IMG/VR virus record: IMGVR_UViG_3300045993_000598
Location: 1 to 35,413 of that record
Source: a virus
Direction: 5' to 3' (one strand)
Length of the DNA: 35,413 nt
Below the pieces are notes generated by a model. That model was not told where the DNA came from. It was given only the letters and a program-made list of their open reading frames with translations, and searched no databases. Both the position numbers and the translations under genes were made by a program. Of the stretch, positions 33,771-35,413 are shown piece after piece (positions within the stretch are counted from its first letter, which is position 1; each line of letters starts with the position of its first letter).

Positions 33771-34286
33771 GTGGCTGATTCTAAAAACATTCCTGGTCTA
33801 GATCTGTATTCCGCAACTTCTAGCGGAAAAATAATTTCAAAAAAAACTGGATTAGAAATAAAAGAGCTTTTCAGAAAAGATGGATACATAAACGTCCATG
33901 TTTTTGTTGGAAAAATAAATAACAAAAAAAAATATAGTTTAAAATTACAGCATAGACTTGTTGCTGCTGCATTTTTTGGTGAGTCTGCGCTTGATGTAAA
34001 CCATAAAAATGGGATCAAGGCAGACAACAGAATTGAAAATTTAGAATATTGCACGCGATCTCAAAACATCAGACATTCTATTGATGTGCTTGGCAATAAA
34101 CACTGGTCACTAGGGTCTGATAATTCAAACTCAAAAATAAATCTTGAGACTCATAAATTTATAAATAAATTTTATAAAAACAAAGTTGCAAATGCAGATG
34201 AAATTGCAAAACTTTTTGATATAAATAAAGCAACAGTGATGAATCATGTTCGTAATTCAAAAAGGATTGAAAAATGTCTGAGATAA
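33771..34286 (+). CDS. HNH homing endonuclease, paralogue of the one at 24329
   Basis: 171 residues from a GTG start with TGGAGG at 33758-33763. NUMOD-type opening (IPGLDLYSATSSGKIISKKT), HNH core LQHRLVAAAFFGESALDVNH then KNGIKADNRIENLEYCTRSQ, and a C-terminal helix-turn-helix-like segment (NADEIAKLFDINKATVMNHV). Core identity with the minus-strand gene at 24329 is high. AT-rich and lysine/asparagine-rich, unlike flanking genes. It overlaps the ParB-like gene by 13 bases. GCCTGTGGCT occurs twice just before it (33738 and 33767), possibly a trace of insertion. Confidence 0.88.
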   Translation: MADSKNIPGLDLYSATSSGKIISKKTGLEIKELFRKDGYINVHVFVGKINNKKKYSLKLQHRLVAAAFFGESALDVNHKNGIKADNRIENLEYCTRSQNIRHSIDVLGNKHWSLGSDNSNSKINLETHKFINKFYKNKVANADEIAKLFDINKATVMNHVRNSKRIEKCLR

Positions 34287-34765
34287 AAATTAATTGCCAA
34301 TATACATCTTTAGTCGATGTTTCCCACTTGGTAGAAAATCCTAAAAATGCAAATAAGCATACAAAAGAACAGATTGAACGACTTGCAAAAATAATGTCAT
34401 TCCAAGGGTGGAGACATCCTATTGTAGTTTCAAAAAGATCTGGTTTTATTTGCGCAGGTCATGGCCGATTACTAGCAGCAAAACTTCTTGGATTGGACAA
34501 GGTGCCAGTCGACTATCAAGAGTTTATCAGTGAAGCAATGGAGTTTGCTTTTTTGGTGGCTGACAACGAAATTGCTAGATGGGCTGAGTTTGATGAGGCT
34601 AAGTTTTTAGAGGATGTTAAGACAATTGACCTTGGCGACATTGACCTGCTTGGTATGAAAAACTTTGTAATGGATATTCCCAAAGTCGGAGCTGAGTTTG
34701 ATCCGTTCGCAGAAGACGTTGTCATTGAACAGCGCAAATGTCCGCATTGTGACGGTATATTGTAA
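34274..34765 (+). CDS. ParB/Srx-fold protein (DNA modification partner)
   Basis: 163 residues. LVENPKNANKHTKEQIERLA, then FQGWRHPIVVSKRSGFICAG and HGRLLAAKLLGLDKVPVDY give the ParB N-terminal/Srx fold, with GHGR as the nucleotide-binding signature. The helical middle (FLVADNEIARWAEFDEAKFL) follows. The C-terminus ends in KCPHCDGIL, half of a zinc ribbon. ParB-like proteins are often fused to, or next to, phage DNA methyltransferases. Here the next gene is the Dam-like enzyme with a one-base TAATG overlap. Could guide or regulate modification, or act as a nuclease. Confidence 0.82.
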   Translation: MSEIKINCQYTSLVDVSHLVENPKNANKHTKEQIERLAKIMSFQGWRHPIVVSKRSGFICAGHGRLLAAKLLGLDKVPVDYQEFISEAMEFAFLVADNEIARWAEFDEAKFLEDVKTIDLGDIDLLGMKNFVMDIPKVGAEFDPFAEDVVIEQRKCPHCDGIL

Positions 34766-35413
34766 TGGCTTTTCTTACTGCTGGCTCTGTTGTTAAATAC
34801 GGAATCCCTTACCAGGGATCTAAGACTAAATTAGTAGAAAAGATTTGCAGGTTTTTCCCAAATGCAGATAATTTCTACGATTTATTTGGAGGCGGTTTCT
34901 CTGTATCTCATTACATGATTGAGAATAGATCAAAATCATTTAAGCAATTTCACTACAATGAAATTAGGACAGGACTTTGCGAACTAATTAAAGATGCAAT
35001 GCTTGGTAAATATAATTACAAGGCGTTTGAGCCGGAATGGATTTCACGCGAACGGTTCTTTGCCGAAAAAGAATCAAATGCTTATATAAAAATAATCTGG
35101 TCATTTGGTAATAATGGAGAGGGCTACATTTTCGGAAAAGACCGAGAAGATAATGTTCGAAGTATGCATATGGCCGTGGTTTACGATGAGTTTGATTCTT
35201 TTATGCAAGAAATTTTTGGTATAAGTAAGTGGCCAAATACGCTAGATATTACTGGAAAAAGACTTTATCTTAAAAGAATAATTGCAAGTAAGCGCGGCGG
35301 GCGTGTTGACCTCCAACAGCTCAAACAGCTCCAACAGCTCCAACAGCTCGAACAGCTCGAACGGCTCCAACAGCTCCAACAGCTCGAACGGCTCGTATCG
35401 TTTACAAATAAAT
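34765..35413 (+). CDS. dam: Dam-like DNA N6-adenine methyltransferase, N-terminal part (runs off the window)
   Basis: First 216 codons of the methyltransferase that continues at base 1. Motif X-like YGIPYQGSKTKL (residues 12-23) and motif I FYDLFGGGFSV (37-47) bind S-adenosylmethionine. HYNEIRTGLCELIKDAMLGK (63-82) follows the family order. ESNAYIKIIWSFGNNGEGYI (103-122) matches the 'SFGN' strand common in phage Dam-like enzymes. From residue 184 the three-residue leucine repeat begins, with nine units here versus eleven at the other window end. Start overlaps the ParB-like stop. Confidence 0.92.
   Translation, partial: MAFLTAGSVVKYGIPYQGSKTKLVEKICRFFPNADNFYDLFGGGFSVSHYMIENRSKSFKQFHYNEIRTGLCELIKDAMLGKYNYKAFEPEWISRERFFAEKESNAYIKIIWSFGNNGEGYIFGKDREDNVRSMHMAVVYDEFDSFMQEIFGISKWPNTLDITGKRLYLKRIIASKRGGRVDLQQLKQLQQLQQLEQLERLQQLQQLERLVSFTNK
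35217..35413. repeat. Terminal overlap, right copy (matches 1-215)
   Basis: Matches the left window end apart from two missing 9-bp units. See the entry at 1-215. The difference between the copies means that at least two repeat-length versions exist in the data, or that the repeat was misassembled. Confidence 0.9.
35314..35394 (+). repeat. 9 tandem 9-bp units inside the methyltransferase (right copy)
   Basis: Nine units encode QQL, KQL, QQL, QQL, EQL, ERL, QQL, QQL, ERL. The left copy (98-196) has two more KQL units directly after the first; all other units and both flanks are identical. The difference is exactly 18 bp and keeps the frame. Confidence 0.97.

Follow-up and report, generated by a model that had tools for sequence, protein, structure and literature searches.

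A length-variable, in-frame leucine-triplet tract in a predicted D12-class adenine methyltransferase of phages

The two ends of the virus record IMGVR_UViG_3300045993_000598 (35,413 bp; the whole of this stretch was analysed and is referred to below as the window) overlap inside one and the same D12-class adenine methyltransferase gene, and within the overlap a 9-bp tandem array is present in two lengths, i.e. with 9 units at one end and 11 units at the other. Whole-unit length variation of such arrays is real in relatives, as established from sequenced isolate genomes. A segment that nearly all members of a widespread group of phage enzymes keep, yet that varies in length between otherwise identical genes, is both constrained and hypervariable, which is unusual for part of a catalytic protein. 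With moderate confidence, we regard the segment as a selected, phase-locked structural insertion of leucine triplets in the recognition region, the unit number of which drifts through fast in-frame turnover. The features concerned are the following.

1-215, + strand: terminal overlap at the left end, 215 nt long
2-511, + strand: C-terminal part of the methyltransferase, with the 11-unit tract, motif IV DIPY and the C-terminus (PHROG_56, E 1.6e-18; Pfam D12, E 0.0017, below cut-off)
95-193, + strand: 11-unit copy of the array, at the other record end from the 9-unit copy (units CTC-NAA-CRG in codon register)
572-925, + strand: small HTH-like ORF between methyltransferase and terminase
925-2184, + strand: terminase large subunit (profile matches), with the packaging genes just downstream of the methyltransferase
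34274-34765, + strand: ParB-N-like protein (profile searches), directly upstream of the methyltransferase
34765-35412, + strand: N-terminal part of the methyltransferase, with the motif X/I region, the recognition region and the 9-unit tract, running off the record end (Pfam MethyltransfD12, E 1.8e-7; PHROG_56)
35217-35413, + strand: terminal overlap at the right end, 197 nt long (two CTCAAACAG units, or 18 bp, fewer than at the left end)
35311-35391, + strand: 9-unit copy of the array (CTC-NAA-CRG; L-[QKE]-[QR])

The N-terminal part of the gene scores 31.6 bits against PF02086, above the curated cut-off of 22 for the D12-class profile, and PHROG_56 (DNA methyltransferase) matches both gene parts. 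Motif I (DLFGGG) lies in the N-terminal part and motif IV, which reads DIPY (not DPPY), in the C-terminal part; this is the alpha-group order, it is conserved across relatives, and the gene product is predicted from sequence to be a D12-class (alpha-group) N6-adenine methyltransferase. Judged by position alone, the ORF at 572-925 is probably the small terminase. At 33771-34286, just upstream of the ParB-like gene, an HNH endonuclease with a NUMOD4-like motif is encoded, possibly a homing element beside the packaging region.

When positions 1-215 and 35217-35413 are aligned there are zero mismatches, and the sole difference is a clean 18-bp indel inside the 9-bp array. The extra sequence consists of CTCAAACAG (Lys-Gln-Leu) twice over and adjoins an identical unit, which is the pattern expected from slippage. 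TRF reports the array twice, at 95-196 (11.3 copies, score 148) and at 35311-35394 (9.3 copies, score 126), and no other tandem repeat in the 35,413-bp record comes near it in strength; in both partial ORFs (34765-35412 and 2-511) the array is in frame. A preliminary description of this DNA had noted the same gene segment at both ends with 9 and 11 in-frame units, which is borne out by the end alignment and by TRF. Its coordinates for the array (35314-35394) denote the same array shifted one codon later, its unit of (Q/K/E)(Q/R)L is correct by translation in codon register, and its placement of the tract between the recognition region and motif IV agrees with a tract end that lies about 18 residues before motif IV. 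Read off the assembly, the 9- and 11-unit forms would coexist in one sample, i.e. the difference most likely represents two length variants in the sampled population, the assembler having opened a circular or permuted genome at this point.

Between isolates, the clearest picture comes from the Lactococcus phages BM9 and GL4, the methyltransferase genes of which are identical over the first 508 and the last 316 bases, with the difference confined to the tract (one unit and several substitutions). The 5' part of the BM9 tract is common to AL30, a sharing that suggests recombination. One-unit differences also separate L057 from L064 and L056 from L060, each with 3-5 flank substitutions, and between L004 and L005 a degenerate tract has changed by 24 bp with the frame preserved. 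In some pairs substitutions, too, are concentrated in the tract, and diversifying selection could account for this in place of unit exchange. All tract length differences in near-identical pairs are multiples of three and the unit measures 9 bp, so that the gene cannot be switched off by unit gain or loss; the preliminary description had argued this for the window, and the behaviour recurs in unrelated phages. Where the flanks of a pair are 99% or more identical, the gaps that a script listed in those flanks (not each checked by eye) look like start-codon choice and tract-boundary effects. There are counter-examples, however, in which the flanks differ and the tract is the same (L170/L171, L019/L021 and L141/L142). 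The gene occurs in several lengths among sixty Lactococcus records that match one query, most commonly 879, 885 and 888 nt, and the 3-bp gap between the 885- and 888-nt genes lies outside the tract. The near-identical genes L004:2619-3641 and L005:2995-4041, which come from two samples and encode 340 versus 348 aa, carry a different, 35-residue duplicated repeat at the tract site.

Relatives were sought in viral contigs, bacterial and archaeal genomes and phage records, and were found in Lactococcus, Leuconostoc and Streptococcus phages, a cyanophage, Lauvirus and many environmental viruses. In a set of 80 viral relatives, collected with search patterns from the motif I and motif II regions (i.e. 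outside the tract), a period-3 leucine tract score of at least 6 was reached by 78, compared to 4.9% of shuffled segments, and a score of at least 10 by 71, compared to 0.05%. Comparison with related phages had been proposed beforehand as a check, and the tract proves to be kept at the same place in these 78, instead of being absent or random, with the consensus L-[QE]-[QR]. Among the phages examined, those of Bacteroides, Vibrio, Klebsiella and Cellulophaga have short D12 enzymes that lack the tract. Over 163 tracts, not all of them independent, Leu occupies position 1 in 87%, Gln or Glu occupies position 2 in 79% and Gln or Arg position 3 in 75%, and the unit number ranges from about 4 to 22 (counts that follow the scoring rule used, with an uncertainty of one or two units at the tract edges). 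In 116 of these partly dependent 163 tracts exactly 18 residues separate the end of the tract from motif IV, and many of the remaining ones are off by multiples of three. A pattern scan of viral contigs for the tract itself gave at least 118 stretches among the matches listed. Among those listed, 91 matches were classed, 59 of which lie in frames with methyltransferase motifs, the remainder being mostly simple repeats in short or unrelated frames, together with L193, a truncated probable methyltransferase; on this basis a general phage motif was rejected. Enzyme and tract also occur in L174, a contig assigned to a Thermoplasmatales archaeon MAG, possibly a provirus or a binning error.

The codons give a view of how the tract is maintained. 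Two Leu codons of one tract are identical with a probability of 0.74, versus 0.24 for Leu codons outside the tract in the same genes, yet CTT, CTC, TTG, TTA, CTA and CTG are each the major tract Leu codon in 11 to 41 phages. From this codon sameness within tracts and diversity between phages, we infer that the units in one phage share recent descent and that selection across phages acts on the protein pattern, protein-level constraint being combined with fast unit turnover at the DNA level. A function of the array as DNA or RNA was rejected, since all six Leu codons dominate in some phage. Glu-Arg salt bridges from i to i+4, looked for as a sign of an alpha-helix, show no excess (150 versus 146 +- 7.5). 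LER within single units does show one (253 versus 161), which may simply reflect shared unit descent.

An AlphaFold2 model was made of the near relative L082 (not of the split window gene), with a mean pLDDT of 89.9 and a Dam/T4Dam-like fold, its best PDB matches being E. coli Dam and T4 Dam (TM about 0.42-0.59, with large rmsd). In this model the tract immediately precedes the strand leading to motif IV, and in both AlphaFold2 models obtained it is mostly helix, at a pLDDT of about 54-77. A strict period of three does not place leucines on one face of an alpha-helix, and the helix, drawn at such low pLDDT, is therefore a tentative fold for the tract. The consensus of a leucine-rich repeat (LRR) is LxxLxLxxN, over 20-30 residues. 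An LRR domain was rejected because the tract has a pure 3-residue period and no Pfam LRR match (at E 0.01), the PDB giving just a weak LRR match (E 0.1).

Taken together, the array is best read as a coding minisatellite in an orphan phage D12-class N6-adenine methyltransferase, and the L-[Q/E/K]-[Q/R] segment that it encodes is inserted between the target-recognition region and the motif-IV strand. Comparison of the relatives shows that selection retains the segment together with its polar/leucine pattern and the 3-residue phase in which it stands to motif IV. In phage populations the number and order of units probably change, with the frame intact, through replication slippage and through recombination among the units, the variation having been observed and the mechanism being deduced from it. 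The segment itself is probably a structural element that protrudes from the enzyme and can be of very different lengths. Its length would have at most a modest, and an unproven, influence on activity or stringency, and the near-universal retention of the tract suggests a function that the term "tolerated insertion" fails to name.

It is possible, though we rate it well short of probable, that unit number or sequence shifts the recognition region on the DNA, that length variants differ in stringency or activity, and that the population thereby hedges against host restriction through overlapping motif sets. The position of the tract between recognition region and motif IV is in line with this, as is the fast, in-frame length variation. 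The published data on Lactococcus 936 phages bear on it most directly: M.Phi15I has been assigned CCAG, and M.Phi93II and M.Phi145II have been assigned CYAG (Murphy 2014, PMC4190342). Comparison of the genes gives a tract of about 8 units for M.Phi15I and of 20 or more for M.Phi93II and M.Phi145II. The short-tract phage, phi15, shows CCAG only, whereas phi145 and phi93 show CYAG as well as GTAG and CCCA, the latter two without a named enzyme (PMC4190342). By annotation and Pfam searches with three methyltransferase families, phi145 (record L297) has only two DNA methyltransferase genes, one of which is tied to GGWGA; since this leaves only one free, a relaxed M.Phi145II would explain the set of CYAG, GTAG and CCCA. 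The motif sets of phi15 and phi145 are thus compatible with a more relaxed long-tract enzyme, which is a lead and not evidence of cause. In fact, the motif evidence comes down to a single comparison, in which the M.Phi15I-type and M.Phi145II-type enzymes share only about 85% identity outside the tract and have unlike putative recognition hairpins as well, in which the phages were grown on different hosts (SM M/SM E versus SM 13/SM 11), and in which CYAG was assigned to M.Phi145II by similarity, not by cloning. Moreover, the motif remains 4 bp. We consider it rather unlikely that the full form of this idea holds, i.e. that unit number and sequence make up an in-frame contingency locus setting the stringency of a single-chain adenine methyltransferase, so that one population carries enzymes whose sets of methylated 4-bp motifs overlap, and thereby evades different restriction systems of its hosts. 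A modular code in which one unit reads one base is unlikely as well, with about 8 and 20 or more units both going with 4-bp motifs.

It is doubtful that the tract is a surface for protein interaction (self-association, or binding of a phage protein such as the adjacent ParB-like one, or of a host factor), with turnover reflecting escape or loose requirements on copy number. A leucine-rich amphipathic pattern that is held in phase and retained nearly universally would suit such a surface, and a ParB-N-like gene lies upstream in the window and, as read from the ORFs, similar ones lie upstream of the methyltransferase in several relatives (L003, L081 and L082). No partner is known, however, and the neighbours differ in many relatives (Lactococcus 936 phages).

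That there is a single true unit number, with a short tandem array mis-resolved at two ends by the assembler, is very improbable, for although the record ends at the array and other contigs break there too, each end spans the entire array plus unique flanks with no other mismatch, and whole-unit variation of the same kind occurs between sequenced isolates. The other contigs ending inside the tract, which also speak for the reading as an insertion of drifting unit number, are L003 (3530-3604), L075 and L229, and among contigs available in full length 3 ends near the tract were observed versus 1.0 expected, an excess that is suggestive only. L219 and L235 begin inside the tract, at what is the end of the available stretch and not necessarily that of the contig. 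It seems that the tract breaks short-read assemblies, and it may explain why some such assemblies of these phages break in the methyltransferase gene.

The natural pair BM9/GL4 and the published phi15 and phi145 enzymes make an effect of tract length directly testable. If length were to alter stringency, it would provide phages with a graded, never-off route to diversify DNA modification.

Among known systems, the Type IC HsdS proteins (EcoR124I/EcoR124II) resemble the present case in that the number of repeats in a DNA-modification protein changes in frame. In EcoR124I/II, an extra TAEL repeat separates the two specificity domains and alters the gap of the bipartite target (PMC3874165). The HsdS units are of 4 residues (TAEL) and lie between two recognition domains, whereas those of the phage enzyme are of 3 residues in a single methyltransferase protein with one recognition region. 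The analogy to the HsdS/TAEL ruler drawn in the preliminary description is therefore weak for a single Dam-like D12 protein whose relatives are assigned contiguous 4-bp motifs: as CCAG and CYAG are contiguous, the characterised relatives would contain no spacer to tune, and with contiguous 4-bp motifs at both tract lengths, unit number in these relatives would set no gap and add no bases. The phase-variable mod (phasevarion) methyltransferases likewise change repeat number within a methyltransferase gene, but their repeats toggle the frame on and off, as units that are not a multiple of three can, whereas the 9-bp units here preserve it.

The closest counterparts are M.Phi15I, M.Phi93II and M.Phi145II, orphan phage adenine methyltransferases of the same family with the tract at the same place, though longer or shorter than in the window enzyme. 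The alignment figure in PMC4190342 leaves out 55 and 15 aa, probably the tract region, and we noticed no comment there on a repeat; in the open-access literature searched no description of the leucine-triplet tract was found. By family, the enzyme belongs with the D12 class of E. coli Dam and T4 Dam (PF02086, PHROG_56), and these two are also the best solved structures for the L082 model. What sets the window enzyme apart from them is the variable leucine-triplet insertion, which interrupts the match to the Pfam profile (in phi145 at positions 107/119 of the profile), together with a motif IV that reads DIPY.
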